A stretch of DNA of 17,424 bases. It comes from Paludibacteraceae bacterium (GTDB lineage: Bacteria > Bacteroidota > Bacteroidia > Bacteroidales > Paludibacteraceae). Made by a program: the position numbers and the translations under genes. The notes under the pieces were generated by a model. It worked only from the letters and a program-made list of their open reading frames with translations. It ran no database searches and was not told the origin of the DNA. Shown here one piece after another: positions 1 through 16,083 of this stretch. The DNA is taken from assembly GCA_017402895.1 (NCBI GenBank), contig JAFPLG010000147.1, forward strand, positions 1 to 17,424. Direction: 5' to 3'. Position 1 is the stretch's first letter; the number at the start of each line of letters is the position of its first letter.

Positions 1-738
1 ATAGAGAAGTCGCCACACGAAGTGAAGCTGCATGCCGGCGATACGCTACTCTTTGAGTGCCCGCCGAAACTGAATATCCATACCGAGCAACTGAATTCGC
101 AACTCTATTTCTACGATTCGGACCAGGTGCCGAACATCGGTAAGAAAACACTTATCTCCACCGCTATCATGATTGCAATGGTCGTGCTGTCGGCACTAAA
201 TGTACTACCGTTGCTGCAGTGTGCGTTCCTCGCAGCGTTTGCGATGCTCATTTTCCGTTGCTGCAGTCCCGATCAGGCAATGAAAGCCATCAACTGGGAC
301 ATCCTGATGGTCTTTGCCGGTTCGGTGGTCCTTGGACTGGCAATCCAGAATACCGGCATTGCCGAAAGGCTTGCGTATGGCATACTGGATATATGCGGCA
401 CAAACCCGATTGTCGTGATGACGGCGATATGCTTTGTGGCTACGTTTATCACGGAGTTTATCTCCAACACAGCCGCCGGTGCGATGTTCTTCCCGATTAT
501 GTATCAGGCGGCCGTGCAGTTAGGTTACGAACCGTATCCGTTCCTCATCGCACTGATGATCAGCGTGAGCAGCAGTTTCGCTACGCCTATCGGTTCGCCG
601 ACCCACATGCTCGTCTATGCTCCGGGCGGTTACCGCTTCAGCGACTTCATGCGCATCGGCCTACTGATGAACCTCATCATCCTGGCAGCGAATATCTTTA
701 TCGTGAATATTGTGTATCCCTTAACTCCATTACACTAA
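1..738 (+). CDS. SLC13-family permease, C-terminal part (5' end outside window)
   Basis: The frame is open from base 1, so the gene starts upstream; 245 residues plus the stop are visible. The first ~24 visible residues look like the end of a TrkA-C (RCK-C) domain (GDTLLFECPP). A membrane domain follows, with about six hydrophobic segments. It carries SLC13-type hallmarks: SNTAAG in the middle and the re-entrant-loop-like ATPIGSPTHMLVYAPGG near the C terminus. SLC13-type carriers with TrkA-C domains move anions such as sulfate or dicarboxylates across the inner membrane, often with sodium. The substrate cannot be read here. Cysteine-synthesis genes lie about 6 kb downstream, but a terminator and promoter intervene, so they are weak support for sulfate. 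Only 3 bases separate this stop from the next start, so co-transcription is likely. The GTG at 22 is internal, not a real start. Confidence 0.85.
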   Translation: MEKSPHEVKLHAGDTLLFECPPKLNIHTEQLNSQLYFYDSDQVPNIGKKTLISTAIMIAMVVLSALNVLPLLQCAFLAAFAMLIFRCCSPDQAMKAINWDILMVFAGSVVLGLAIQNTGIAERLAYGILDICGTNPIVVMTAICFVATFITEFISNTAAGAMFFPIMYQAAVQLGYEPYPFLIALMISVSSSFATPIGSPTHMLVYAPGGYRFSDFMRIGLLMNLIILAANIFIVNIVYPLTPLH

Positions 739-741
739 AGA

Positions 742-2859
742 ATGAAAAAATCATCTGAGAAAAAGACAAAAAAAGACCATGGTGGTCTGTGGATCATCCT
801 GGTGGCGGCTATCGCACTGGAAGCCATCTCCTGCCTCATGTACTTCACCAGCCGTGTGGCTATTCGTCACGAGGCCGAGCAACGTGCCAAGACCGAGTTG
901 CGCCGTGCCGAACTGGAGATAGACGTGCATGCTATTGAGATGGAAACAGCCGCCAAGACCCTGGCCAAGTTGGCCGAGAAATACCTGGAAGAGCCGGATT
1001 CTATGTATGCCGCCACCCGTCTGGCGGTGAGTACGCTACGTGCAAACACCAGTATGGCGGTAGCGTTCATCCCGGATTATTTCCCCAGCCTGGGGACGTT
1101 CTTCGAGGTCTGCAGTAGCCGTCTTGCTGAAGATAGTGTCTATACGCGCCAGATAGGCAGTAAGGAACACGACTACACCCAGATGGAATGGTACCAAAAC
1201 GGCTTTATGCACGATAGTTGCTGGTGGTGCGAACCCTACCTGGACGATTCGGGGTCCCGAACCTATGTAGTCAGTTGTTCGTACCCCGTGCGCGATAGAA
1301 GTGGTAAGGTTGTGGCCGTTGTATGTATAGACATGTCGCTGGATGCACTCAAGAACCTGTCTGAGTATCTGCAGGTATATCCCGATAGCTATTATTCTAT
1401 CCGTTCCGGCACAGGCGTGGAGATTGTTCCCGCTCCGGATACTGTACCAGGCCGCAAGTATAATATCTTCGGCGAAGAGATAGATGCTACGGGATGGCAG
1501 ATTGAGATTATCATACCCGATGACGAACTCTTCCGCGACCTGAATCATGTTGGTCGTATCGTCGCATTGCTGATGCTACTGGGTCTGGCAATGCTGATTC
1601 TAATAGTATGGTACGCCGGACGCAACAACAAACGACTTATCGAATCAACAGCCCGCAACCGGAGCATGGAGAACGAACTCAATATCGCTCGTAAGATCCA
1701 GATGGCCATGCTGCCGAATCGTTTCCCGCCCTTCCCGGACTATCCGAACCTGAATGCTCATGGTGTGGTCATTCCGGCCAAAGAGGTTGGCGGCGACTTG
1801 TTCGACTTCTATATCCGCGAGAACCGGCTGTTCTTCTGCGTGGGAGACGTGAGTGGAAAAGGTGTTCCGGCGTCTATCGTGATGGCCATGACGCGTTCTA
1901 TCTTCCGTAGTTTCACGTCCTATCTCAACAGTCCGGCGCAGATCGTCACGCAGATGAACGATTCGCTAAGCGGTGAAGGCAATGACCAGAGTATGTTTGT
2001 TACGCTGTTCCTGGGCGTGCTCGACCTCAGTACCGGTGAACTCAAATACTGCAATGCCGGCCATAATGCACCGATTCATTTACGAATGGACGATTTGCGA
2101 TTTACGATTTTGGATTGCATAGCTAATCTGCCTCTTGGTGTATTAGGTGGATTTGCATACCAGGAACAAGAAGCGAAGATGGAAGTAGGTGACACCCTCT
2201 TCCTCTATACTGACGGACTGACCGAAGCGGAGAACAGCGCACATGAGTTGTTTGGTGAGGAACGAATGATGGAAAGCTTAAAGGGGATGGGTGAAAGGTT
2301 AAAGGAGCCGCGAGAACTCATTGCAGATATGCACCAAGCTGTGGCTTCGTTTGTAGGCGATGCTGAGCAGAGTGACGACCTGACCATGTTCGCCATTCGT
2401 TTATTAGACAAACGACAAACGACAAACGACAAACGACCAATGTCCGGAGGACACTACTCCCTCGTCATGCGCAATGATATCCAACAGATTCCTACCTTGG
2501 CCGAGTGGATAGAGATGATTGGTCTGCCTCAGGAACTCAACATGCCGATCAACCTGGCGCTGGAGGAAGCGGTCAGCAACGTGATGCTCTATGCCTATCC
2601 GGGCAAGAGTGGACAAGTGCTCGTGGAATGTGAGAAGTGCCAAGAGCCTAAAGGCCAAAAACTGGTATTCACCATCACCGACAGCGGCGTACCCTTCGAT
2701 CCGACACAACAGAAAGATCCGGACGTGACGCAGAGTGCTGAAGAACGCCCGATTGGTGGACTTGGAATCTTCCTTGTTCGCCAGATCATGGACGACATCC
2801 GCTATGAGCGTAAAGATGATAAGAATATCCTTACACTCGTCAAGAAACTAAATGGCTAA
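742..2859 (+). CDS. Membrane sensor SpoIIE/PP2C phosphatase fused to RsbW-like kinase domain
   Basis: This 705-residue protein is predicted to sit in the inner membrane. TM1 is at about 16-36. A periplasmic Cache-like sensor follows (about 40-265; see SYPVRDRSGKVVAVVCID at 180-197). TM2 is at about 271-292, then a short signalling helix (about 295-325). The PP2C/SpoIIE phosphatase domain spans about 340-555, with metal-binding aspartates in GGDLFDFY (D352), GDVSGKG (D369), YTDGL (D491) and SDDLTM (D545-546). The last domain (about 575-705) is a GHKL ATPase of the RsbW/SpoIIAB kind, with the N-box ALEEAVSNVMLYAY, DSGVPFDP and the glycine loop IGGLGIF. Such proteins phosphorylate and dephosphorylate a STAS partner, and a STAS gene is next. 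HsbR of Pseudomonas similarly joins PP2C and kinase domains. Three tracts of 7-base-period DNA lie inside the gene, one at the PP2C/kinase boundary. The ligand and final output are unknown. Confidence 0.93.
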   Translation: MKKSSEKKTKKDHGGLWIILVAAIALEAISCLMYFTSRVAIRHEAEQRAKTELRRAELEIDVHAIEMETAAKTLAKLAEKYLEEPDSMYAATRLAVSTLRANTSMAVAFIPDYFPSLGTFFEVCSSRLAEDSVYTRQIGSKEHDYTQMEWYQNGFMHDSCWWCEPYLDDSGSRTYVVSCSYPVRDRSGKVVAVVCIDMSLDALKNLSEYLQVYPDSYYSIRSGTGVEIVPAPDTVPGRKYNIFGEEIDATGWQIEIIIPDDELFRDLNHVGRIVALLMLLGLAMLILIVWYAGRNNKRLIESTARNRSMENELNIARKIQMAMLPNRFPPFPDYPNLNAHGVVIPAKEVGGDLFDFYIRENRLFFCVGDVSGKGVPASIVMAMTRSIFRSFTSYLNSPAQIVTQMNDSLSGEGNDQSMFVTLFLGVLDLSTGELKYCNAGHNAPIHLRMDDLRFTILDCIANLPLGVLGGFAYQEQEAKMEVGDTLFLYTDGLTEAENSAHELFGEERMMESLKGMGERLKEPRELIADMHQAVASFVGDAEQSDDLTMFAIRLLDKRQTTNDKRPMSGGHYSLVMRNDIQQIPTLAEWIEMIGLPQELNMPINLALEEAVSNVMLYAYPGKSGQVLVECEKCQEPKGQKLVFTITDSGVPFDPTQQKDPDVTQSAEERPIGGLGIFLVRQIMDDIRYERKDDKNILTLVKKLNG
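2078..2119 (+). repeat. Degenerate heptad tract inside the PP2C domain
   Basis: Six successive 7-base words, ATTTACG, AATGGAC, GATTTGC, GATTTAC, GATTTTG and GATTGCA, stay in one register. They encode about residues 447-459, the variable stretch between the conserved NAGHNAP and PLGV motifs of the phosphatase domain. The period resembles the heptads in several gene gaps of this window. The call rests on reading period and similarity by eye. Confidence 0.5.
2276..2303 (+). repeat. Degenerate GGYKAAA-type heptad tract inside the PP2C domain
   Basis: Four consecutive 7-base words, GCTTAAA, GGGGATG, GGTGAAA and GGTTAAA, encode residues around 512-521 (SLKGMGERLK). This is a variable region between the FGEER and SDDLTM blocks. 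The words resemble those before the MATE gene (GGCTAAA, GGCGAAA), which suggests one class of short repeat both in gaps and inside this gene. Confidence 0.5.
2407..2437 (+). repeat. GACAAAC tandem repeat, 4 full copies plus GAC, in frame at a domain boundary
   Basis: Exact 7-base units start at 2407, 2414, 2421 and 2428, followed by a partial GAC at 2435. They encode the linker DKRQTTNDKR (residues 556-565) between the PP2C and kinase domains. Because 7 is not a multiple of 3, gain or loss of one unit shifts the frame. The two other frames downstream stop at 2475 and 2510, before the kinase domain. Four copies is a low number, so slippage may be rare. Confidence 0.9.
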
Positions 2860-2880
2860 ATAGCCCAATGATAAAATAAA

Positions 2881-2910
2881 TGGTAAATTATAAATGATTA
2901 AATTGTAAAT
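2881..2910 (+). repeat. 30-base heptad-period spacer before the STAS gene
   Basis: This element fills most of the 56-base gap between the phosphatase/kinase and STAS genes. It begins TGGTAAATTATAAATGA and matches 4290-4319 at 26 of 30 positions by hand alignment. It reads as 7-base words (TGGTAAA, TTATAAA, TGATTAA, ATTGTAA). No promoter of the TAnnTTTG type is visible in it. Confidence 0.7.
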
Positions 2911-2915
2911 AGCCT

Positions 2916-3218
2916 ATGAAAATCAACATGGTAAATGAGGGTGAGCAACTCGTTGCGCAACTCTCCGGAAGACTGGACACCGCGGCTGCTGCAGAAATTG
3001 CACCCGACTTCCAAAAACTGGCAGAACAAGCTGCCAAACACATCATTCTCGACTGCGCCCAACTGGAGTATATCTCTTCTTCGGGTCTGCGTCTGTTCCT
3101 CGCTCTCCGCAAAGAGTCTGCTGCCAAGAGTGGCAAACTGCAGGTACGTGCTATCAATGCCGACATCCGTCAAGTGTTTATGATGACCGGCTTCATCAGC
3201 CTCTTTGATATTATTTAA
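2916..3218 (+). CDS. STAS-domain anti-sigma-factor antagonist (SpoIIAA/RsbV-like)
   Basis: This is a 100-residue single-domain protein, the usual size of SpoIIAA/RsbV proteins. It has the N-terminal strand pattern ending in LSGRLDT (residues 16-22), a central ILDCAQLEYISSSGLR segment, and a C-terminal helix ending FISLFDII. The phosphorylatable serine of this family lies just before the conserved (S/T)G step. Here that is Ser55 or Ser56 of SSSG; the preceding position, often Asp, is Ser54. It is the likely substrate of the phosphatase/kinase encoded just upstream. In known systems the unphosphorylated form binds an anti-sigma factor or another effector. Only 2 bases separate its stop from the start of the RelA/SpoT-type synthetase, so the two are probably translated together. 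Its own target is not in the window. Confidence 0.93.
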   Translation: MKINMVNEGEQLVAQLSGRLDTAAAAEIAPDFQKLAEQAAKHIILDCAQLEYISSSGLRLFLALRKESAAKSGKLQVRAINADIRQVFMMTGFISLFDII

Positions 3219-3220
3219 TT

Positions 3221-4273
3221 ATGGATCTGCATTCAGAAATGCTTTTGGAGGAGTACCGCGAAGCCAAGCCTGTATTCGAGAAGATGCAGGTTGAAGTGAC
3301 GCGTATCCTACGAGAAGCCCTGGAGCGTAACGGCCTCATCGTCACGGCGGTGGAGACGCGTATCAAGACCGAAGAGAGTCTGGCCGGCAAGTTAGCCCTC
3401 AAGGGCTCTAAGTACGCCACGCTCAGCGATATTACCGACATCCTCGGTGCGCGTATCATCACGTTCTATACCGATGACGTCGATCGTATAGCTGCCATGG
3501 CGGAGCAACTCTTCGAGATCGACTGGACAAACTCTGTCGATAAGCGCAAACTGCACCAGCTGGACAGTTTTGGCTACAACTCGCTCCATTATATCTGTCG
3601 CCTGCCGGGCTACGACTACCGTTTCGAATTGCAACTGCGTACGACGCTTCAGCACGCATGGGCCGCTATCAATCACGACACCGGCTACAAGTCCGGCGTG
3701 GAGATACCGCGAGAGTACATGCGCCGCATGAATCGTTTGGCCGGTATGCTGGAAATGGCCGATGATGAGTTCAGCCGTATCCGCATGGAGATCAACGATT
3801 ATCGTCGTCGTGTACAACAACTGGTGCAGAATGGTCAACTGGATGATGTGCTGCTGGACGGTGATGCTTTCCGTAGTTTCTTGAATGCGAGACCGTTTGA
3901 CAAACTCAACAAACGCATCGCAGCTATCAACCAGGCAGAGATCCAAGAGGTGCCTTTGATGCAGTATCTGAAGGTGCTCAAAGCACTGGACTGCAACACA
4001 TTAGGCGATGTCTCAAGGCTGCGTAATCAATACGAGGAGGATGCCTATGCACTGGCACGGCATCAGTTGGGAAACACCGACCTCGATATCATCTCTTCGG
4101 CCGTCGGACTGCAGAATATATGCATCGTATGTATCCTCTCGCAAGGCGGTGGTAAGATCGGTTTGTTGCGTTTCTTCAATGCGCTTAACGGAGAGAATAT
4201 CAATAATGAAGAACTGGCCGAACTGACTTTCAAGCAGGCATTGAACCTACCGTTTATGCAGACTGAAAACTGA
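3221..4273 (+). CDS. Stand-alone RelA/SpoT-type nucleotide pyrophosphokinase with unassigned C-terminal region
   Basis: This 350-residue cytoplasmic protein has a RelA/SpoT synthetase domain at about 20-165. Visible catalytic elements are R47 and K49 in RIKTEES, D73 in TDILGARI, the G-loop GYNSLHY (118-124), E136 in FELQLRT, and H152 in the AWAAINHD segment. All key residues of an active (p)ppGpp synthetase-type fold appear present. There is no N-terminal HD hydrolase, no TGS and no ACT domain, so it is not a full-length Rel. Residues ~165-350 form a mostly helical region that I do not recognise; it is longer than in small synthetases such as RelP/RelQ. The product could be (p)ppGpp or pppApp, or the domain could modify another pyrophosphate acceptor as toxic small synthetases do. 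An HD-type hydrolase encoded two genes downstream could be the counter-enzyme. Confidence 0.88.
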   Translation: MDLHSEMLLEEYREAKPVFEKMQVEVTRILREALERNGLIVTAVETRIKTEESLAGKLALKGSKYATLSDITDILGARIITFYTDDVDRIAAMAEQLFEIDWTNSVDKRKLHQLDSFGYNSLHYICRLPGYDYRFELQLRTTLQHAWAAINHDTGYKSGVEIPREYMRRMNRLAGMLEMADDEFSRIRMEINDYRRRVQQLVQNGQLDDVLLDGDAFRSFLNARPFDKLNKRIAAINQAEIQEVPLMQYLKVLKALDCNTLGDVSRLRNQYEEDAYALARHQLGNTDLDIISSAVGLQNICIVCILSQGGGKIGLLRFFNALNGENINNEELAELTFKQALNLPFMQTEN

Positions 4274-4275
4274 AA

Positions 4276-4319
4276 GGTAAAAGGCCTATTGGTAAATTGT
4301 AAATGAAAAAAATGTAAAT
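4276..4319 (+). repeat. Heptad-period spacer before the APH-like gene
   Basis: The 51-base gap after the synthetase gene is mostly 7-base words such as GGTAAAA (4276), TGGTAAA (4290) and TTGTAAA (4297). Positions 4290-4319 match the spacer at 2881-2910 at 26 of 30 positions. Nothing like a terminator or a TAnnTTTG promoter is visible, so the operon probably reads through. Confidence 0.65.
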
Positions 4320-4324
4320 GTTTT

Positions 4325-5164
4325 ATGGAACCTATTCTAATTGATTTGAATGATTATGTGCGCACCGGCGAGGGAGCCAATGGCGCAAGTTACAACCATA
4401 AGTCGGACCCCAGTATCATGATGAAGATGTACTTCCGCAACTTCGAAGCGGCTGCATTGGAACTGGAGTTGGCACAGAAAGTATATGCGGCCGGTATTCC
4501 GACGCCCGAACCCGGTGACTTGGTTACCGATGGTGAGCGTATTGGCATTCGTTTCCGCCGCATCGAAGGCAAGAAATCCTATTCGCGTGCCTGTGGTGAC
4601 GAACCCGAGAAAGCACCTGAGTTTGGACGTGAGTTCGCACAGCTATGCAAGAAACTGCACAGTATTCACGTGGACACGACACAGTTCGAATCCGTCAAGG
4701 ACCGTCTCTACCGCATGTTGGACAACAATCCGGACTTTACACCCGAACAGAAGCAGAAATTGCACGATTTTATCGCAGCTGCACCGGATGCTGACACGGC
4801 CATCCACGGTGACCTGCAGTTCGGAAACGGCATCTTCACGGACAAAGACGGCGTGCACACGCAATACTTCATCGACCTGGGTGACTTCTGCTACGGTTAT
4901 CCGATGTTCGACCTGGGTATGGTCTATCTCTGCTGCTGTCTGAATGACGAGTCATGGACCATGGAAGTGAACCATATGTCCAATGCCACAGCCCGTAAGT
5001 TCTGGGACGGTTTCGCCAGGGAATACTTTGGTGCGGATGCAGATCTTGAAGAAATAGAAAAAAACGTCCGTATCTATGCCGGTCTGAAGACCATCATGAT
5101 TGAACGTGACACCCACTGTCCGATGCCTCAATTCCGGGCAATGTTAGAAGGAACAATTTACTAA
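4325..5164 (+). CDS. APH-fold kinase, TIGR02172-like (substrate unknown)
   Basis: This 279-residue protein has the aminoglycoside-phosphotransferase/choline-kinase fold. The catalytic loop HGDLQFGN (H161-N168) carries the base D163 and a metal-binding N168. The second metal motif is in FIDLGDFCYGYPMFDLG (about 182-198). The N-terminal lobe has a glycine-containing loop (TGEGANGASY, 14-23) and a likely ATP lysine, K34, in MMKMYF. It resembles the TIGR02172 family of uncharacterised APH-like proteins by my recognition. There is no reason from sequence or context to call it an antibiotic-resistance enzyme. It lies between the alarmone-type synthetase and the HD hydrolase, suggesting a small-molecule or protein kinase role in the same pathway. 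Its stop is 1 base before the next start. Confidence 0.85.
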   Translation: MEPILIDLNDYVRTGEGANGASYNHKSDPSIMMKMYFRNFEAAALELELAQKVYAAGIPTPEPGDLVTDGERIGIRFRRIEGKKSYSRACGDEPEKAPEFGREFAQLCKKLHSIHVDTTQFESVKDRLYRMLDNNPDFTPEQKQKLHDFIAAAPDADTAIHGDLQFGNGIFTDKDGVHTQYFIDLGDFCYGYPMFDLGMVYLCCCLNDESWTMEVNHMSNATARKFWDGFAREYFGADADLEEIEKNVRIYAGLKTIMIERDTHCPMPQFRAMLEGTIY

Positions 5165-5165
5165 T

Positions 5166-5744
5166 ATGGCAAATAAATTCTTAGAAACAGACCTGCTTGA
5201 CCGCGCGATCATTTTCGCTGTCAACGCACACCACAACACAGAACGTCGTGGTAAGGGCTTTCCCTATATCGTCCATCCGATGGAAGCGGTGGAAATCGTA
5301 GCCACCATCACGCCCGACCAGGAACTGCTGGCAGCTGCTGCACTCCATGACACCATCGAAGACACCGATGTGACCGTAGAAGATATCCGTCGTGAGTTCG
5401 GTGGCCGTATAGCCGAACTCGTTCATGCTGAGAGTGACCAGTTCACCGAAGGTGTCTCCGAAGAAGACAGTTGGCATGACCGTAAGCAGGCGGCTATCGA
5501 CCGCCTTGCAGCAGCGTCCCATGATGCGAAGATTGTGGCTATGGGCGATAAACTGAGTAACATGCGGGCTATCTGGCGCGACTACCAGACCCGGGGTGAC
5601 GAACTATGGAATATCTTCCACGTCAAGGATAAAGCCTCGCACGAGTGGCACTACCGCGGACTGGCCGCCTCCCTGAGCGAACTGAGTGACACTTTTGCCT
5701 ATAAAGAGTTCATACACTTGATTGATGAAGTTTTTAAAAAGTGA
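5166..5744 (+). CDS. Small HD-domain hydrolase of RelA/SpoT (MESH1/SAH) type
   Basis: This 192-residue single-domain protein matches the hydrolase half of Rel/SpoT. Motifs in order are AVNAHH then RRGKGFPYIVHP (H37), AALHDTIEDT with the metal/catalytic H61, D62, E65 and D66, and MGDKLSNM (D128, N132). These are the residues expected of a manganese-dependent (p)ppGpp 3'-pyrophosphohydrolase, though related HD proteins act on other substrates such as NADPH. It has no synthetase domain. Paired with the stand-alone synthetase two genes upstream, it would complete a split synthesis/degradation cycle outside any full-length Rel protein. The stop TGA at 5742 overlaps the GTG start of the next gene (GTGA), indicating translational coupling. 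Confidence 0.88.
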   Translation: MANKFLETDLLDRAIIFAVNAHHNTERRGKGFPYIVHPMEAVEIVATITPDQELLAAAALHDTIEDTDVTVEDIRREFGGRIAELVHAESDQFTEGVSEEDSWHDRKQAAIDRLAAASHDAKIVAMGDKLSNMRAIWRDYQTRGDELWNIFHVKDKASHEWHYRGLAASLSELSDTFAYKEFIHLIDEVFKK

Positions 5745-6544
5745 AAATTATCTTTGAACATATTGATAATGCGCGTGACTTAGGAGGTATTATCGGAGCA
5801 GGCGGCAATGCTATCATTCCGCATCGACTGCTGCGTACCGCACATCTGCATGATGCGACGGATGCAGACGTAGAGCGGCTCAAAGAGGAATATAACCTCT
5901 GCCGCATCTTCGATTTTCGTTCGATGGGAGAGTTCCAAGCCATTCCGGACCGTGAGATAGAGGGCGTACAACATCATCTGCTCCCGACCATTGATATGCG
6001 TGCCGAGCAACAAACCGGCAAACCCATACCGGAAGAGGCATTTCTGGAACTGGATCGACATATCGTCAACTATTCCTTCTATCCCGAGGTGCAGCAGATG
6101 GCAGCAAACATGTACCCGTCGCTCATCCGAAGTGAGTTCTCGCAACTCCAGTATGCCGCATTCCTGCGTCTGATTGTCGAAGCACCCGAGGACGGAGGTA
6201 TTCTTTGGCACTGCGCGCAGGGCAAAGATCGAACCGGGTGGGGTGCCGCTTTCCTGATGTTTGCCTTGGGCGTAGATAGGGAAACCGTCATTGCCGATTT
6301 TGACCTAAGTAACGAAGCCTACCGCCCCCTTGTTAATCGACTGAATGCGGATGTGTTGGCGCGCGGAGGAGGAGAAAACGAGATGGCTGTTATCCAGGCT
6401 TTTATGGGCGTCTCTACGAAAAACTTTATCTCCACACTCCATCTCATCGATCGTGAGTATGGCGGGATGACCAATTACCTGCACGATATTCTATGCCTCT
6501 CGCATGACGATATCCGCCTCCTTCGCAAACGCTATTTGGCTTAA
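5741..6544 (+). CDS. Tyrosine-protein phosphatase-like protein (Y_phosphatase3 type)
   Basis: This 267-residue protein carries the CX5R signature as HCAQGKDRTG, with nucleophile C158 and R164. The N-terminal ARDLGG motif (11-16) and an IFDFRSMGEF segment (57-66) are typical of the bacterial Y_phosphatase3/IphP group. The KD pair inside the P-loop (K162, D163) also occurs in family members that hydrolyse phosphoinositides, so a protein target is not assured. No signal peptide is visible, so it is probably cytoplasmic. The start is a GTG at 5741 inside the GTGA overlap with the HD gene; no nearby ATG would keep the ARDLGG motif. It is the last gene of block 1, and a hairpin terminator follows 7 bases after the stop. 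Confidence 0.9.
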   Translation: MKIIFEHIDNARDLGGIIGAGGNAIIPHRLLRTAHLHDATDADVERLKEEYNLCRIFDFRSMGEFQAIPDREIEGVQHHLLPTIDMRAEQQTGKPIPEEAFLELDRHIVNYSFYPEVQQMAANMYPSLIRSEFSQLQYAAFLRLIVEAPEDGGILWHCAQGKDRTGWGAAFLMFALGVDRETVIADFDLSNEAYRPLVNRLNADVLARGGGENEMAVIQAFMGVSTKNFISTLHLIDREYGGMTNYLHDILCLSHDDIRLLRKRYLA

Positions 6545-6599: not shown

Positions 6600-6624
6600 C
6601 ACCCGATTTATAATTTGGAGTAGT

Positions 6625-7119
6625 ATGGCTAAATTAACAGCAGAACAGATTGAGGAACGCGCAGAACGTGCGAAAGAACTGTTTCACCAAGGATTCAATT
6701 GCGCACAAGCTGTAGTGGGTGCTTGTTGCGACCTCTTTGGAATGCCGGACCAACAGACCGCTATGCGTATGGCGGCCGGTTTCGGTGGCGGTATGGGACG
6801 TATGCGCCTCACATGCGGAGCGGCTTGCGGCATGTTCATGCTGGCAGGACTCGAAAACGGTAGTACCACGCCCCACGACAACGAGGGCAAGATGCAAAAC
6901 TACGTGCTGGTTCAGAAATTGGCCGGAGAGTTCCGCGCTAAGTATGGTTCGATTACCTGCGGCGAGCTGCTGGGACTCGTGCCTAAGGGACAGTGTGTGC
7001 CGCAGATGGACCTGGACCCACGCCCTGCTGAGCGTACGCCGGAGTACTATGAGAAACGTCCTTGCCCGGAGATGATAGCCGAAGCCGTACGAATCGTACT
7101 AAAAGAAGCAGAGAACTGA
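6625..7119 (+). CDS. C_GCAxxG_C_C family cysteine-rich protein
   Basis: This 164-residue protein has eight cysteines: C26 (FNCAQAV), C34 and C35, C64 and C68 (LTCGAACG), C112 (ITCGELLG), C124 and C147 (RPCPEM). That spacing and the glycine-rich FGGGMGRM segment match the C_GCAxxG_C_C family. Its members are thought to bind a metal or use redox cysteines; a precise function is not established. I chose the ATG at 6625, not the in-frame start at 6577, because 6577 lies inside the terminator and upstream of the expected transcription start. It is the first gene of an operon with cysteine synthesis 8 bases behind it, which hints at a role in sulfur or thiol handling. Confidence 0.88.
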   Translation: MAKLTAEQIEERAERAKELFHQGFNCAQAVVGACCDLFGMPDQQTAMRMAAGFGGGMGRMRLTCGAACGMFMLAGLENGSTTPHDNEGKMQNYVLVQKLAGEFRAKYGSITCGELLGLVPKGQCVPQMDLDPRPAERTPEYYEKRPCPEMIAEAVRIVLKEAEN

Positions 7120-7127
7120 AAGAAAAT

Positions 7128-8033
7128 ATGACTCATTCCAGTCTCATACAGATGATCGGACGTACACCGATGGTGGAAATGCCCGTTGATGGAGCGCAAA
7201 AAGGCGTTCGCTTGCTGCTCAAACTGGAGCGGCAAAACCCCGGTGGCAGCGTGAAAGACCGTACGGCGCTGGCGATGATAGAGGATGCGGAACAACGAGG
7301 CGTGCTGACACCCGGCGGCACAATCATCGAACCAACCAGCGGCAACACAGGCGTCGGTTTGGCATGGATCGGACGCACAAAAGGTTACCGCGTAGTGCTT
7401 ACCATGCCCGATACCATGTCGGTGGAACGACGCAACCTGCTGCGCGCCTACGGGGCCGAACTGGTGCTGACTCCCGGTGCCGAAGGCATGAAAGGTGCCA
7501 TCGCCCGTGCCGAAGCCCTGCGTGACGCCACACCCGGCAGCATCATCCTGGGGCAGTTTACCAACCCCGCCAATCCCGAAGTGCACTATCGCACCACCGG
7601 ACCCGAGATATGGAACGATACATGCGGACAGGTGGATGTGTTCGTTGCCGGTGTCGGCACAGGCGGCACGGTGAGCGGAGTAGGCCGGGCACTCAAAGAG
7701 CATAAGGCCGATATAGAGATTATAGCCGTGGAACCCGATGCGTCGCCCGTACTCTCCGGAGGACAGGCCGGCCCGCATAAGATACAAGGTATCGGTGCGG
7801 GATTTGTGCCGCAGACCTATCAGGCGCAGTATGTCGATAGAGTCATGCGCATCACCAACGACGAGGCATACGAAGGTGCACACCGGCTTGCCGAACAAGG
7901 ACTGCTGGTAGGAATATCCTCCGGCGCCGCATACATGGCTGCCATGCGACTGGCACGACAACCCGAATATGCGGGACGAACCATCGTAGCACTACTGCCC
8001 GATACAGGAGAAAGATATCTGAGCGTATTATGA
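7128..8033 (+). CDS. cysK: Cysteine synthase (O-acetylserine sulfhydrylase)
   Basis: This 301-residue PLP enzyme joins O-acetylserine and sulfide to make cysteine in the cytoplasm. The PLP lysine is K43 in PGGSVKDR. The substrate loop TSGNTG is at 70-75. The phosphate-binding GTGGT and the late GISSGAA motif are both present. Length and order fit CysK/CysM; the neighbouring cysE supports CysK. The ATG at 7128 gives the normal N terminus (SLIQMIGRTPMVEM), so the longer frame from 7062, which overlaps the previous gene, is not used. Its stop overlaps the cysE start as ATGA. Confidence 0.95.
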   Translation: MTHSSLIQMIGRTPMVEMPVDGAQKGVRLLLKLERQNPGGSVKDRTALAMIEDAEQRGVLTPGGTIIEPTSGNTGVGLAWIGRTKGYRVVLTMPDTMSVERRNLLRAYGAELVLTPGAEGMKGAIARAEALRDATPGSIILGQFTNPANPEVHYRTTGPEIWNDTCGQVDVFVAGVGTGGTVSGVGRALKEHKADIEIIAVEPDASPVLSGGQAGPHKIQGIGAGFVPQTYQAQYVDRVMRITNDEAYEGAHRLAEQGLLVGISSGAAYMAAMRLARQPEYAGRTIVALLPDTGERYLSVL

Positions 8034-8716
8034 TACAAGTACCTACAATAGAAGAACTGAAGCAACTGATGGCGCATATGCGGGCGGTGGTCTTTCCGGA
8101 CTATTTTCCGAAAGCAGACGCACCACGCTCACTCGCGTTGCCGGATGAGTTCTGGACACGGGTGCCGGAGATAAGCCGGCTGGTACATACCGATGTGGAT
8201 GCCGTGTTGCATAACGACCCCGCCGTGACCGACCGAGGCGAAGTGATACTGAGTTACCCGCTCACCCAGACGATGCTCCATTTTCGTACTGCCCATGTCC
8301 TTTACCAACTGGGCGTGCCCTACGTGCCACGTATGTTGACCGAGTTGGCACATGCACGAACCGGAATAGATATCCACCCGGCTGCTACGATAGGCGACTA
8401 TTTCTGTATCGACCACGGCACAGGTGTCGTTATCGGCGAGACAACCATTATCGGCAGTCATGTGGTGCTCTACCAGGGCGTAACACTCGGAGCCAAGAAC
8501 TTTGAATACGACGACGAGGGACGACCGATGGATATTCCGCGTCACCCCATACTGGAAGACCATGTGACGGTCTATTCCAACACATCTATTCTGGGCCGCG
8601 TGCGCATCGGTCACGATACCATTATCGGCGGTAACGTTTGGTTGACAACGGACGTACCGGCCAACTCGCTGGTACTCCAAAGTACTCCGGAAATACGAAT
8701 CAAAAACAAATCATAA
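8030..8716 (+). CDS. cysE: Serine O-acetyltransferase (EpsC-like)
   Basis: This 228-residue acetyltransferase makes O-acetylserine from serine and acetyl-CoA for the preceding CysK. The N-terminal helical part has the NDPA motif (D63). The left-handed beta-helix part holds TGIDIHPAATIG (H116), IDHGTGVVIGET (H129) and LYQGVTLGA. These match serine acetyltransferases of the EpsC/SatA kind rather than the longer enterobacterial CysE. The C terminus reads RIKNKS and does not end in isoleucine, the residue that docks into CysK in the classical cysteine synthase complex. The ATGA overlap with cysK implies coupled translation. Confidence 0.93.
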   Translation: MIQVPTIEELKQLMAHMRAVVFPDYFPKADAPRSLALPDEFWTRVPEISRLVHTDVDAVLHNDPAVTDRGEVILSYPLTQTMLHFRTAHVLYQLGVPYVPRMLTELAHARTGIDIHPAATIGDYFCIDHGTGVVIGETTIIGSHVVLYQGVTLGAKNFEYDDEGRPMDIPRHPILEDHVTVYSNTSILGRVRIGHDTIIGGNVWLTTDVPANSLVLQSTPEIRIKNKS

Positions 8717-8737
8717 ATATCAAATATCAAATCGCAA
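8715..8737 (+). repeat. 7-base tandem repeat abutting the lpd start
   Basis: The words AAATATC (8715), AAATATC (8722) and AAATCGC (8729) are followed by AAATG, so the lpd start codon sits at the edge of the next unit. It overlaps the last two bases of the cysE stop and fills the whole 21-base gap. Copy-number change would alter gap length but not the lpd frame. Confidence 0.75.
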
Positions 8738-10093
8738 ATGAATAGATATTTCATAGCTATTCTGGGTGGTGGCCCTGCAGGATATACGGCCGCAGAGAAA
8801 GCCTCGAAAGCAGGCAAAGACGTGGTGCTCTTTGAGCAAAATGCGGTAGGTGGCACATGTCTCAACGTAGGTTGTATTCCTACCAAATCGCTCCTATATG
8901 GCGCCAAACAGTACTACAACGCTTCGCATGCACAGAAATATGGCGTTACGGCCGAGAATGTAGCATTCGATTTCGCCGCCATGCAGAAACGCAAGACCAT
9001 CGTGGTGCGCAAACTCGTGGCAGGCATCAAACAGCGCCTCAACAACGAACACTGCACCCTGGTAAGCGGCGCCGCGCGGGTGCTGAGCCGCACGGACGAA
9101 CTGGTGACGATAGAGTGCAACGGCGAGACTTACGAGGCCGAGAACCTGCTTATCTGTACGGGTTCCACCAATTTTGTACCACCGATTCCCGGCATCCAGG
9201 ACAACCCCGCCGTATGGGACTCCACCGATGCTCTGGCTGCACAAGAACTCCCGAAATCGATTATTATCGTCGGGGGTGGCGTGATCGGAATGGAGTTTGC
9301 GACGCTCTACCATGAGCTGGGTGTGCCCGTCACGGTCATCGAAGCTATGCCGACCATCCTGCCCAACCTGGACCAGGAAGTAGTTGCGGTGCTGCTGGAG
9401 AAATACCGCAAGGCCGGCATCAATATCCTGACTTCCACCAAGGTGACAGCGGTTACCGACAATGGATTACGGGTTACGGGCGCAGATGGCGAAGAGGCTT
9501 CTTTTGAAGCCGACAAGATCCTGGTCAGTGTCGGTCGTCGCGCCAACCTGCAAGGACTGGAGGCATTGACCGATCTGGAACTCTATCGTGGAGGTGTCGT
9601 AGTGGACGAGTTTATGAAAACCAATCTGGACAACGTATATGCCTGCGGTGATGTGACCGGCAAGATTATGCTGGCGCACGTAGCTGCTCGTCAGGCCGAA
9701 GTGTGCATCGGGCGTCTACTCCGTCAGATACCGCTGCAACGCATCGCATACAACGCCATTCCTTCGGTGGTCTATACCAATCCCGAGATAGCCACCGTCG
9801 GCATCACGGAACAGCAGGCCGCAGAAATGAATATCGAGACGGAGGTACGCCGTTTGCCGATGACCTTCAGCGGCCGGTTTATGGCGGAGAACGAAGGTGA
9901 GACCGGACTATGCAAGATGGTGGTGGACAGCAAGAAACAGACCGTACTGGGTGTGCACATGATCGGTAATCCCTGCTCGGAGTTTGTCGCTGCCGCCTCG
10001 TTTGCCGTACGTAACGGCTATACAATACAGGAAATGGAACAAGTGGTCTTCCCGCATCCTACGGTAAGCGAAATCCTGCACGAAATATTATAA
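8738..10093 (+). CDS. lpdA: Dihydrolipoyl dehydrogenase (E3)
   Basis: This 451-residue FAD-dependent disulfide oxidoreductase re-oxidises dihydrolipoamide with NAD+. It has the N-terminal FAD loop GGGPAGYTA (10-18), the redox disulfide GGTCLNVGCIPTK (C41, C46), an NAD-binding GGGVIGMEFA segment, and YACGDVTG. The C-terminal HPTVSE pair (H440, E445) is the catalytic His-Glu of true E3 enzymes and sets it apart from mercuric or glutathione reductases. No 2-oxoacid dehydrogenase or glycine-cleavage gene is adjacent. It presumably serves complexes encoded elsewhere, or a thiol-redox role with the sulfur genes before it. The stop TAA overlaps an ATG as TAATG at 10091-10095. Confidence 0.94.
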   Translation: MNRYFIAILGGGPAGYTAAEKASKAGKDVVLFEQNAVGGTCLNVGCIPTKSLLYGAKQYYNASHAQKYGVTAENVAFDFAAMQKRKTIVVRKLVAGIKQRLNNEHCTLVSGAARVLSRTDELVTIECNGETYEAENLLICTGSTNFVPPIPGIQDNPAVWDSTDALAAQELPKSIIIVGGGVIGMEFATLYHELGVPVTVIEAMPTILPNLDQEVVAVLLEKYRKAGINILTSTKVTAVTDNGLRVTGADGEEASFEADKILVSVGRRANLQGLEALTDLELYRGGVVVDEFMKTNLDNVYACGDVTGKIMLAHVAARQAEVCIGRLLRQIPLQRIAYNAIPSVVYTNPEIATVGITEQQAAEMNIETEVRRLPMTFSGRFMAENEGETGLCKMVVDSKKQTVLGVHMIGNPCSEFVAAASFAVRNGYTIQEMEQVVFPHPTVSEILHEIL

Positions 10094-10094
10094 T

Positions 10095-10129
10095 GGCTAA
10101 AGGCGAAAGATTATAGGCGAAAGGTGAAC
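10095..10129 (+). repeat. Five-heptad tract spanning the lpd-MATE junction and MATE start
   Basis: Five 7-base words in one register, GGCTAAA, GGCGAAA, GATTATA, GGCGAAA and GGTGAAC, run from 10095 to 10129. The last contains the GTG start of the MATE gene (10124). The third introduces the TAG that ends the reading frame opened by the ATG at 10093. Confidence 0.75.
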
Positions 10130-11458
10130 AAGCGGATCCTACAATTGGCGGTGCCGAGTATTCTGGCGAATATCACCATTCCACTCGTTGGACTGGTGGA
10201 TACTGCTATCGTAGGCCATATATCCGATGCATCGGCGATAGGAGGTATCGCTATCGGTACGATGCTGTTCGACCTGCTCTATTGGAACTTCGGTTTCCTG
10301 CGGGTGGGTACGAGTGGCATGACGGCCCAGGCGTTTGGAAAGGGACAAAAAGACGAATGCAAGCAGATATTGACCCAGAGTCTGGGTATAGTCGCTATCG
10401 CTACGGTGGCTATCTGGTTGCTGCAGTGGTTGTTTGTGACGGCAGTTCTGGCCTGTGTTCCCTGCTCGCCCGAGGTGGCCGAGTTCTCACGTCACTATTT
10501 CTTCGTACGCATATGGGCGGCTCCGGCAACACTGAGTCTGCTGGCTATGAAGGGCTGGTTTATCGGCATGCAGGATACCGTCTCGCCAATGGCCGTTGAC
10601 ATACTGGTCAATGTGGTGAATATGGTCGTGAGTTACGTGCTTGCGGTCCATACACCGCTGGGACCCATCGGCGTGGCATACGGAACACTCGTAGCCCAGT
10701 ATAGCGGTCTGTTGCTGGCCGTCAGTATATTGCTTGTGAAGTATTCCGATTTGTCGATATTCCGAGGACTGGAGACATGGCGCTCATCTGTTCAATGGTC
10801 TAAGATGCGACGACTGCTTGTGCTGAACGGCAATCTGTTTGTCCGCAGTTTGTGCTTCATGGTGGTGTATGTCGGTTTTACATCTCTGGCAAGCCGATAT
10901 GGAGATACAGAGCTGGCTGTGAGTGCAATACTGATGAAGCTGTTTATGATATTCAGCTATTTCGTGGATGGTTTTGCCTTTGCCGGCGAAGCATTGGTGG
11001 GCAGATATATCGGCGAACGCCAACCTCTGATGATGCGCAAAGCCGTTCGCCTGCTGTTCGTATGGTCGGTTGGAGTAGGGCTGCTCTTCACGGGAGTATA
11101 TGCCATATGGGGCGATGAGTGCATATGGTTGATGACGAGCGACCAGTCGGTGATTCATGCTTCCGCTCCGTATATGGGATGGCTGATAGCGATGCCGATA
11201 GTCAGCACGTTGGCCTTTATGTGGGACGGCGTCTTTGTGGGTGCCACTGCCGGCCCCGAGATACGAAACTCGATGATATGGGCAGCTTTGGCGTTTGTAG
11301 CGGCCTACGTGGCGTGCAATAAGCCGTTGGGTGTACAAGCCATCTATATCGCTTATTTTGCCCACTTGATAGCACGTGTGCTGTATTTGACAATTAAATG
11401 GAAACCATTATATGATACGCAAGTTAGAAAACCGGCGATGGAAGGTGCTCAAGAGTGA
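10124..11458 (+). CDS. MATE-family efflux transporter (DinF-like)
   Basis: This 444-residue inner-membrane protein has about 12 hydrophobic segments and the normal MATE length. The N terminus KRILQLAVPSILANITIPL and the motif GTSGMTAQAFGKGQ (about 63-76) fit the DinF branch of the MATE family. These antiport sodium ions or protons with organic cations or other toxic compounds; the substrate is not readable here. The start is a GTG; the only upstream ATG (10093) is out of frame and ends after seven codons. Its 3' end overlaps the Nudix gene by 47 bases. Confidence 0.92.
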   Translation: MNKRILQLAVPSILANITIPLVGLVDTAIVGHISDASAIGGIAIGTMLFDLLYWNFGFLRVGTSGMTAQAFGKGQKDECKQILTQSLGIVAIATVAIWLLQWLFVTAVLACVPCSPEVAEFSRHYFFVRIWAAPATLSLLAMKGWFIGMQDTVSPMAVDILVNVVNMVVSYVLAVHTPLGPIGVAYGTLVAQYSGLLLAVSILLVKYSDLSIFRGLETWRSSVQWSKMRRLLVLNGNLFVRSLCFMVVYVGFTSLASRYGDTELAVSAILMKLFMIFSYFVDGFAFAGEALVGRYIGERQPLMMRKAVRLLFVWSVGVGLLFTGVYAIWGDECIWLMTSDQSVIHASAPYMGWLIAMPIVSTLAFMWDGVFVGATAGPEIRNSMIWAALAFVAAYVACNKPLGVQAIYIAYFAHLIARVLYLTIKWKPLYDTQVRKPAMEGAQE

Positions 11459-11978
11459 GAATATCCTCAAGTTGGGACCGTGGCTCAGCGTGCGACAAGA
11501 GTGCGTGAAGCTGCCTTCCGGTGTAGAGATTCCTACGTGGTACGTACTGGAATTCCCCGACTGGATTAACGTGATTGCCCTAACCAAAGACGGACAGATG
11601 GTGATGGTGGATCAGTATCGTCATGCGCTGGGTGAAACCCACTACGAACTGGTGGCCGGCGTGATAGACCCGGGTGAGACACCGCTCCATGCCGCACAAC
11701 GCGAACTGAGCGAAGAAACGGGCTATGAAGGCGGCGAGTGGTCACTCTTTATGACTCTTTCGCCTAACCCGACCAATCACAACAACCTGTCGTACACCTT
11801 TCTGGCGCGGGGCGTAGAGAAACGTCGTGACCAACACCAGGAACCGACAGAAGATATCGGTATTGACTTGTTCGCAGAGGATGAGGTGCGTCAACTGCTG
11901 GAACAGGGTGAGATAGTTCAAGCGCTGCATGCCGCACCGTTATGGCGCTATTTTGCCGAAAAACAAAAGAAACAATGA
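11412..11978 (+). CDS. Nudix hydrolase, ADP-sugar pyrophosphatase-like
   Basis: This 188-residue protein contains a complete Nudix box, G83 through Y105, fitting GX5EX7REUXEEXGU (key residues G83, E89, R97, E98, E101, E102, G104). The preceding NVIALTKDGQMVMVDQYRHALG and YELVAGVIDPGE segments are typical of the ADP-ribose/ADP-sugar pyrophosphatase branch; the exact nucleotide is not certain. The ATG at 11412 lies inside the MATE gene. A GTG at 11445 would shorten the overlap to 14 bases and still keep the conserved VLKSE segment, so the start is not settled. Its stop overlaps the RND adaptor start as ATGA. Confidence 0.9.
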   Translation: MIRKLENRRWKVLKSENILKLGPWLSVRQECVKLPSGVEIPTWYVLEFPDWINVIALTKDGQMVMVDQYRHALGETHYELVAGVIDPGETPLHAAQRELSEETGYEGGEWSLFMTLSPNPTNHNNLSYTFLARGVEKRRDQHQEPTEDIGIDLFAEDEVRQLLEQGEIVQALHAAPLWRYFAEKQKKQ

Positions 11979-12982
11979 AACGAAAACTAATCTTATTATC
12001 CGCTTTGGTGGCATTAGTATCCTGTACGAGCCATCAAGATAAGCAGCCGGAGACGCGTCCGATAGATGTGCGAGTGATGGCTGCCGGTGTCGGACATGAT
12101 GCTTCGTCGCATAGCTACGCAGGACGGATAGAAGCTAAAGCTTCCCGGCCGCTTTCCGTGCAGACATCAGGCCGTATTCTGGAGATGACAGTCCGTGAAG
12201 GAGAGTATGTCAAGGCTGGACAACTCTTACTGCGCATCGACAATACTCAGCAGCTGAATGCACTTGAAGCCGCCAAGGCTGTGTTGCATCAGGCTGAAGA
12301 TGCGTACCAGCGTGTAGAGAAAGTGCATGAATCGGGCGTAGTGAGCGAATTACAATGGGTGGAGGTGCAGACCAAACTCAACGAAGCCCGTACTACGGTA
12401 GAAACAGCCGAACACATGGTTCGCCAGTGTGAACTGCGTGCACCGGTAGACGGTATTATCGGTCAATGCTACGTCGAGGTGGGCCAGTCCGTACTGCCTG
12501 TTCAGCCACTTCTCGAACTGCTGAACGTCAGTGAATACTATGTGCGCTTCGGCGTGCCGGAAACCGAGATAGCAGGCGTCAATATCGGTGATAAAGGAGT
12601 GCTCCGCGTAAAAGCCATTGGTGAAGAAGATATCCCCGTAACGATTATCGAGCGCAGCATGAATGCCAATACACTGGCGCACACCTATAATGTGTTGGCA
12701 CGACTCCAGCGCAAAGATGCCGTACTGCCCGGCATGATAGGTGATGTGACGCTCCGTGCGCAAGAGGTGGACGGACTGATTGTTCCAACCGAATGCATCC
12801 AACTGATGCGAACGCAACCGACTGTATGGGTGGCTCGCGACTCTGTGGCCGTACGCTGTCCGGTCCGTTTGGGAGAATATGTGAATAGTGGTGTGGTGGT
12901 TGATTCCGGACTGCAAGCCGGTGACCGCATCATTATCGAAGGATTTCAGAAACTATATAACAACGCAAAGATACACTATTGA
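11975..12982 (+). CDS. RND efflux periplasmic adaptor lipoprotein (MFP)
   Basis: This 335-residue adaptor has a lipoprotein signal peptide with the lipobox LVSC (C17), so it is anchored by lipid after export. The two lipoyl half-motifs are at about 61-90 (SGRILEMTVREGEYVKAGQ) and 153-172 (RAPVDGIIGQ). They flank a coiled-coil hairpin of about 92-150. A beta-barrel region and a membrane-proximal region follow. In RND pumps it bridges the inner-membrane pump and the outer-membrane channel. The ATG at 11975, in the ATGA overlap with the Nudix gene, gives the proper signal peptide; the longer frame from 11942 would put charged residues before it. The pump gene follows with a TTGA overlap. Confidence 0.93.
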   Translation: MKRKLILLSALVALVSCTSHQDKQPETRPIDVRVMAAGVGHDASSHSYAGRIEAKASRPLSVQTSGRILEMTVREGEYVKAGQLLLRIDNTQQLNALEAAKAVLHQAEDAYQRVEKVHESGVVSELQWVEVQTKLNEARTTVETAEHMVRQCELRAPVDGIIGQCYVEVGQSVLPVQPLLELLNVSEYYVRFGVPETEIAGVNIGDKGVLRVKAIGEEDIPVTIIERSMNANTLAHTYNVLARLQRKDAVLPGMIGDVTLRAQEVDGLIVPTECIQLMRTQPTVWVARDSVAVRCPVRLGEYVNSGVVVDSGLQAGDRIIIEGFQKLYNNAKIHY

Positions 12983-16074: not shown

Positions 16075-16083
16075 TTCGCCGGC

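Follow-up and report, generated by a model that had tools for sequence, protein, structure and literature searches.

A Private Alarmone Pathway Probably Governed by a Membrane Sensor in Bacteroidales of the Rumen and Their Relatives

A contig of a Paludibacteraceae bacterium (JAFPLG010000147.1, assembly GCA_017402895.1) was analyzed over its whole length of 17,424 bases, referred to here as the window. At positions 742–6544 it contains a cluster of six genes on a single strand, in which genes for a membrane sensor and a STAS protein precede those for a stand-alone RelA/SpoT-type synthetase (SYN), an APH-fold kinase (APH), an HD-domain hydrolase (HD), and a tyrosine phosphatase-like enzyme (PTP). 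Judged from these sequences and their relatives, the sensor likely controls a private alarmone pathway in rumen and related Bacteroidales. The more specific proposal, to which we assign an even chance, is that the phosphatase and kinase domains of the sensor and the STAS protein constitute a predicted partner switch that turns on the adjacent SYN, the product of which is erased by HD. The strongest sign of the genes working together, as read from comparison of loci, is that the set is retained through rearrangement: at least four family-level groups share the combination of sensor, STAS, SYN, HD, and APH genes, in several gene orders. The cluster would provide a complete and compact circuit leading from a periplasmic sensor through a switch to a synthetase and a hydrolase, in bacteria that live in the rumen and gut.

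742–2859, plus strand: membrane sensor with PDC/Cache, SpoIIE-type PP2C, and RsbW/SpoIIAB-type HATPase kinase domains (Pfam)
2916–3218, plus strand: STAS protein, SpoIIAA/RsbV-like, predicted phosphosite Ser55 (Pfam, NCBIfam, PDB match)
3221–4273, plus strand: SYN, stand-alone RelA/SpoT-type synthetase, 350 amino acids (RelA_SpoT, 2.8e-17, Pfam)
3818–4270, plus strand: SYN C-terminal domain, residues 200–350, mostly helical (no PDB counterpart found)
4325–5164, plus strand: APH-fold kinase, TIGR02172-like (APH, 2.7e-19; TIGR02172, 1.6e-66)
5166–5744, plus strand: HD, small alarmone hydrolase-type HD_4 protein (HD_4, 7.3e-19; PDB matches)
5741–6544, plus strand: PTP, Y_phosphatase3 family phosphatase (6.8e-53)

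Successive genes are separated by 56, 2, 51, and 1 bases, and the last two overlap by 4 bases. The coordinates, order, strand, and spacing of the genes, together with the composition of six proteins, had been described from the DNA letters alone in an earlier account (the original prediction). All were as described there, with domain matches agreeing for every gene and catalytic residues intact.

Components of the Predicted Switch

Residue conservation was assessed in 96 loci distinct by SYN protein, each protein being kept if it reached at least 80% of the query length, which gave 83 sensor, 93 STAS, 95 SYN, 87 APH, 86 HD, and 69 PTP sequences. The tested catalytic residues were invariant or nearly so, and the enzymes of the cluster look active on this evidence. 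The sensor matches SpoIIE (1.6e-50), HATPase_c_2 (3.8e-24), and MCP-like_PDC_1 (7.7e-15) in Pfam, with dCache_1 at 27.9 bits, below its 45-bit cut-off. The five metal-binding Asp residues of the PP2C domain are present in 83/83 sensors, as are E608, N613, D647, and G675 of the HATPase domain. The STAS gene product matches STAS in Pfam (9.1e-16), ant_ant_sig above its cut-off, and PDB entry 1th8 (3.2e-9); its Ser54 and Ser55 are found in 93/93 sequences and Ser56 in 89, the other 4 having Gln. Ser55 aligns with the SpoIIAA serine that is replaced by Ala in the 1tid chain, which we take to be Ser58, the phosphosite. A phosphatase, a kinase, and a phosphorylatable STAS protein are the predicted parts of a complete partner switch.

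The Synthetase and Its Partner Enzymes

RelA_SpoT is the only domain identified in the 350 residues of SYN, with no HD, TGS, or ACT match (Pfam, E 0.01), and 11 positions of its catalytic Arg/Lys/Asp/Glu set are invariant (95/95). By domain content and catalytic residues, SYN appears to be a small alarmone synthetase (SAS), with a fold nearer to RelP/RelQ than to FaRel. The RelQ motifs are absent from it, TTLQHAWAA occupying the position of R3 (LAMNFWAT) and no EFVT (R2) being found. No PDB entry matched the helical C-terminal domain, and Pfam (E 0.01) gave no hit to TPR, the C-terminal domain characteristic of DsRel (SAS-TPR). One of the SYN sequence sets comprised 32 of 38, leaving out L096, L104, L129, L140, L143, and L151 (L104 has a stop within the range). 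Because a second RelA/SpoT reading frame of 797 amino acids lies elsewhere in the host assembly, SYN is not the host's sole protein of this type.

HD is matched in the PDB (7qoe, 1.2e-19; 7qoc; Lmo0812), and H37, H61, D62, E65, D66, D128, K129, and N132 are kept in 86/86 sequences and R28 in 85/86. Its HD_4 domain, its H/HD/ED/D motif, and the lack of a SYNTH domain place it with the small alarmone hydrolases (SAH) by sequence; at locus L288 it is fused to SYN. The fusion is a single 559-residue frame (L288:6265-7944, minus strand) with PF04607 at 48–172 and HD_4 at 374–498, the reverse of the domain order in long RelA/SpoT homologs (RSH). The suggestion in the original prediction that HD is the eraser paired with SYN is well supported as a dedicated partnership by this fusion and by the presence of HD in 112 of 125 well-flanked loci.

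The window APH protein scores 224.4 bits against TIGR02172, just below the curated NCBIfam cut-off of 228.2, which is exceeded by two members from family-level group f81 (238.2 and 232.3 bits). Its K34, H161, D163, N168, D184, and D187 are kept in 87/87 sequences, and a PDB search gave nothing at E 0.01. PTP retains H157, C158, K162, D163, and R164 in 69/69. The kinase and the phosphatase may be a functional pair, since a second Y_phosphatase3-APH pair is found away from SYN in two genomes of the home genus (L233:3-1460 and L241:3-1463; 31% identity for APH and 44–46% for PTP). A literature search for TIGR02172 kinases turned up no paper.

Conservation and Rearrangement of the Gene Set

Neighbors of SYN were detected by tblastn at 1e-4, a search that may overlook APH or STAS genes of strong divergence, and a number of contigs stop close to the cluster; the loci are related, and their counts are not independent events. 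Regions were fetched for 33/36 f2, 21/41 f79, and 11/13 f81 genomes with SYN matches at 1e-20, and the census skipped one of these 11, L323, which has a weak SYN. The home group consists of home-genus genomes and loci not placed in another family. Among 80 of 121 relatives listed, the closest named ones of the window are rumen and gut metagenome-assembled genomes labeled Paludibacteraceae or uncultured Bacteroidales.

Across 156 distinct SYN loci from at least five Bacteroidales families, STAS was found at 142, the sensor at 140, HD at 139, and APH at 117, with STAS directly upstream of SYN at 127. Where at least 4.5 kb was available on both sides (125 loci), the counts were 114 for STAS, 114 for the sensor, 112 for HD, 97 for APH, and 61 for PTP. 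STAS was directly upstream of SYN at 104 of these, divided among the home group (66/67), L139/L141/L145 (2/3), f2 (10/23), f79 (18/20), f81 (8/10), and f101 (0/2); of the first 99 loci, 94 showed this placement, the median spacing being 2. At the 1e-20 threshold, SYN was present in 36/104 genomes and 5/17 genera of f2, in 13/31 genomes of f81 (11 with E ≤1e-186), and in 41/149 genomes of f79, all in one of its 12 genera and one of them a partial match. It was also found in two f101 genomes and at L139, L141, and L145, two of the latter three being titled Bacteroidaceae.

Among 61 genomes of the home genus, 38 contain SYN (E < 1e-130). HD and APH orthologs occur in 37 of these, the contig of the 38th ending inside SYN, vs. 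0 of the 23 SYN-less genomes, of which 13 are at least 90% complete. Any STAS match was found in 38/38 vs. 5/23, and any sensor match in 38/38 vs. 6/23; Fisher tests of these associations gave 2e-10 to 6e-16, uncorrected for relatedness. The original prediction had looked to conserved adjacency of STAS and SYN genes accompanied by HD and APH, and the census sustains it in this respect: the arrangement is not confined to a few strains, nor do STAS and SYN occur independently in most relatives. The six-gene cluster is real in its composition but not as a single fixed unit, PTP having been seen in the home group only (with the queries used) and APH being the most often missing of the other four partners. 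As a control, the same tblastn queries were applied at 1e-4 to 20 loci carrying distant relatives of SYN (L070-L072, L191-L195, and L210-L221), some of them on short contigs, and gave no STAS, PP2C, HD, or APH match. One control locus, L191, has a more distant HD_4 neighbor by Pfam; at L191:6558-9739, a weak HD_4 protein adjoins an 864-residue RelA_SpoT-LSDAT-RyR protein, unlike the cluster.

The home-group order is sensor-STAS-SYN-APH-HD(-PTP). At L139 and L145 it is STAS-SYN-APH-HD-sensor, so that STAS remains beside SYN though the sensor has moved behind HD; L141 has SYN-APH-HD-sensor-DASS-STAS, and L183 and L294 have SYN-HD-APH-sensor-STAS. In f81, the kinase and phosphatase are separate genes, followed by STAS, SYN, and an HD-APH fusion. 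HD-APH fusions, which are also present in 5/21 f79 loci, gave 529 database matches when used as a query, with both Pfam domains in 118 of the best 120 of the 529; they point to the hydrolase side as a possible target of APH. Sensor-STAS-SYN-HD without detected APH was found at nine f79 and eight f2 loci (L308 and L325 with little downstream sequence). In the nine f79 loci, STAS abuts SYN, and HD is not fused, since its frames are 184–205 amino acids long.

A Proposed Mechanism and the Evidence Against It

In the proposed mechanism, the PDC domain of the sensor would read a periplasmic ligand, probably a nutrient. The HATPase domain would phosphorylate STAS on Ser55 and the PP2C domain would remove the phosphate, as their intact conserved catalytic and phosphosite residues imply. 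Unphosphorylated STAS would then leave the kinase and bind SYN, most likely through the C-terminal helical domain, thereby raising pyrophosphate transfer from ATP to a purine nucleotide, and HD would remove the pyrophosphorylated nucleotide. APH, countered by PTP in the home group, would add a second, dispensable layer acting on the hydrolase or the synthetase. We propose that it is unphosphorylated STAS that activates SYN by analogy with Pseudomonas aeruginosa, in which SiaD, a diguanylate cyclase, is bound and activated by SiaC unless SiaC has been phosphorylated by SiaB (passages of PMC8457831 and PMC7647112). SYN is taken as the client of STAS because the two genes adjoin at 104/125 loci, because STAS stays with SYN at L139 and L145, and because some loci show no detected APH. 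A nutrient signal is suggested by genes that adjoin SYN-HD, sensor, or APH genes at several loci, which encode SBP_bac_3/BPD_transp_1 transporters or ABC ATPases (L188 and L225 by domain scan; L239, L240, L241, L282, and L289 judged from similar sequence).

Several observations weigh against direct control of SYN by the switch. SYN is missing from 23/61 genomes of its own genus, and related sensor-STAS pairs occur apart from SYN, also in the same genomes. Two f101 loci contain SYN-HD with no switch nearby, adjoining substrate-binding protein/permease and ABC ATPase genes; the C-terminal domain of SYN is kept there, and therefore cannot exist for STAS alone. STAS is adjacent to SYN in only 12/33 f2 loci, and no same-strand STAS lies within ~6 kb in 8/33 (5/23 of the well-flanked loci). 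In seven f2 loci without detected APH, a YegS/diacylglycerol kinase-like gene (YegS_C and DAGK_cat) lies between STAS and SYN:

L282:6212-7183
L283:7785-8756
L285:8254-9165
L286:4760-5731
L325:1372-2283
L326:5473-6396
L328:5213-6118

At L330 and L331, the gap between STAS and SYN is similar in size to that of the loci bearing this gene. Fusion of STAS to APH, rather than to SYN, was encountered twice (L223:4744-5937, 397 residues; L254:7745-8941, 398 residues), both times beside a PDC-PP2C-HATPase sensor. A query joining STAS and SYN gave no natural fusion of the two among the best 120 of its 7814 matches, a weak negative given that close SYN relatives filled this list.

Co-divergence bears on both sides. 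In favor of the switch, STAS co-diverges with its own PP2C domain (r 0.64–0.68, 0/1000 permutations). Its partial correlation with SYN was weak: across 71 loci it was 0.21 with either SYN domain, and in a 58-locus subset it reached 0.22 with the C-terminal domain and 0.01 with the catalytic one. The bootstrap difference between the C-terminal and catalytic domains was 0.18 (0.08 to 0.30) in 58 loci and 0.00 (-0.09 to 0.12) in 71. STAS-SYN values were no higher than that for STAS-PTP (0.24); STAS-APH gave 0.05 (58 loci) and 0.25 (71 loci), and STAS-HD gave 0.12 and 0.23. Co-divergence was considered as a means of choosing between SYN and APH as the STAS client and was not used as proof, the SYN signal being weak and dependent on the locus set. 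The part of the original prediction in which STAS directly gates SYN is a proposal, opposed by the f2 and f101 loci, the low co-divergence, and the STAS-APH fusions.

Alternative Readings

The fusions of STAS to APH favor a rather unlikely alternative, in which STAS acts directly on the APH kinase or on the HD-APH pair: STAS, once dephosphorylated, would switch the kinase, and the kinase would alter the hydrolase and hence alarmone levels, with SYN a mere pathway neighbor. One of the fusions (L223), after which come STAS and a Y_phosphatase3 gene, belongs to a home-genus genome in which SYN had no match, and the HD-APH fusions of f81 and part of f79 also favor this reading. Further, TIGR02172 was matched at E ≤1e-29 in 6/247 Bacteroidales genomes (40 at 1e-3), and all six matches sit in the SYN cluster or, in genome G289, are fused to STAS beside a sensor. 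It is opposed by the 17 f2 and f79 loci in which sensor, STAS, SYN, and HD are found without detected APH, STAS abutting SYN in nine of them; by L290, L318, and L322, which keep SYN-HD-APH with sensor and STAS undetected within ~6 kb; and by STAS-APH co-divergence as low as that of STAS-HD.

A product of SYN different from (p)ppGpp, such as an adenosine alarmone or some other acceptor bearing pyrophosphate, is unlikely and would be compatible with switch control of SYN. Alignment with YjbM indicated that donor and catalytic residues are retained, and that K112, N148, and E154 in YjbM numbering, of which K112 and E154 have an acceptor-side role, are replaced by D115, H145, and N/Y/Q151. LAMNFWAT, the motif holding N148 of YjbM, is an allosteric motif of RelQ (passages of PMC10434055). 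Against a changed product, Tyr119, at the family's base-stacking position, is invariant in SYN, and at least one SAS accepts guanosine and adenosine nucleotides alike (passages of PMC10434055).

Sigma factors are the classical targets of partner switches, and sensor-STAS pairs occur apart from SYN in the same genomes, so that the switch might control a sigma or anti-sigma factor elsewhere, with the alarmone genes merely co-transcribed. This appears quite improbable: no sigma-factor domain was found among the 16 window proteins scanned, 17/23 SYN-less home-genus genomes lack a sensor match and 18/23 a STAS match, and the gene set holds together through rearrangement. A toxSAS-type toxin-antitoxin or anti-phage pair of SYN and HD under the sensor is highly improbable, although SYN matches the PADLOC family PDC-S33 (1.4e-14), its presence is patchy, and an SAH acts as the antitoxin of the toxSAS FaRel (passages of PMC11782079). 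A defense role was rejected as the leading interpretation, SYN alone among the six window proteins having matched PADLOC and PDC-S33 being a candidate family only.

Relation to Known Systems

Among the closest parallels to switch control of SYN is the SiaABCD system of P. aeruginosa (PP2C SiaA, kinase SiaB, SiaC, and SiaD), in which, by the passages cited above, a small antagonist protein, its phosphorylation governed by a phosphatase and a kinase, binds and activates a second-messenger synthase of the same operon. It differs in that its output is a GGDEF diguanylate cyclase, while that of the cluster is a RelA_SpoT enzyme accompanied by a dedicated hydrolase, a kinase, and a phosphatase; SiaC is a DUF1987 protein with Thr68, while the cluster has a classical STAS protein with Ser and joins phosphatase and kinase in one protein. 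The RsbU-RsbV-RsbW and SpoIIE-SpoIIAA-SpoIIAB systems share the SpoIIE-type PP2C, the HATPase_c_2 kinase, and STAS with a conserved Ser; the cluster differs from them in having no sigma factor and enzymes as outputs.

Among alarmone enzymes, Tde-SAS and Tde-SAH of Treponema denticola resemble the cluster in combining a stand-alone synthetase bearing a C-terminal helical extension with a separate hydrolase. Their extension is a TPR that acts as a brake, the genes are non-adjacent by locus number (TDE1711 and TDE1690), and passages of PMC10434055 contain no partner switch. The FaRel-ATfaRel toxSAS likewise pairs a RelA/SpoT synthetase with an SAH (passages of PMC11782079), but it has a toxin-antitoxin role, and SYN is nearer RelP/RelQ in fold. 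Long RSH proteins (Rel, RelA, and SpoT) join synthetase and hydrolase, as does the L288 fusion, with the differences that the cluster genes are split, the domain order of L288 is reversed, and no TGS or ACT match is present. A 2011 RSH survey gives Rel and RshB alone for its 8 Bacteroidia genomes (passages of PMC3153485).

Literature searches, with most subscription journals beyond their reach, found among the papers listed no link of STAS, SpoIIE, or partner switching to alarmone synthetases and no description of such wiring, in agreement with the original prediction that no system of this composition is known. Second-messenger partner switching is itself known; in the cluster, the alarmone output would be the new part. 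If the switch acts on SYN, partner switching would join nucleotide stress signaling as it has c-di-GMP signaling. More tentatively, the genes may form a private Bacteroidales alarmone circuit apart from Rel, in which an extracellular-ligand sensor, STAS docking on the unmatched C-terminal domain of SYN, the HD eraser, and editing by APH and the phosphatase are combined; this would be the first known partner switch writing and erasing a pyrophosphorylated nucleotide. The HD-APH and STAS-APH fusions would place the TIGR02172 kinases in a functional context.

Cluster Boundaries and Neighboring Genes

The window is an entire contig from an assembly of 1.25 Mb in 185 contigs (59% complete), and two further features border the cluster:

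22–738, plus strand: DASS/CitMHS-type transporter gene (CitMHS, 5.9e-34), present in its 3′ part and truncated by the contig start
6551–6587, plus strand: intrinsic terminator, a 13-pair stem with a T run at its end (folding)

Because the DASS-type transporter gene stops 3 bases 5′ of the sensor gene, it is probably an operon member, and the operon probably begins upstream of 742. A CitMHS/DASS-type transporter is also found near SYN at 3/87 home-group loci and at L139, L141, and L145. The terminator placed at the end of the cluster by the original prediction was recovered by folding as a hairpin after PTP (-16.2 kcal/mol, z -3.63, 0/200 shuffles equally stable). In a strict scan for promoters and terminators, sites were no commoner than in shuffles, and this 3′ terminator was missed, the scan allowing loops of up to 8 where the folded loop has 11.

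Beyond the cluster, window positions 6622–17406 contain genes for a C_GCAxxG_C_C redox protein, a PALP (CysK-like) protein, and a hexapeptide (CysE-like) protein, as well as for a dihydrolipoamide dehydrogenase-like protein, a MatE transporter, a NUDIX protein, and an HlyD-AcrB efflux pair. A gene for an Omp85-type protein lies on the minus strand within the same interval.

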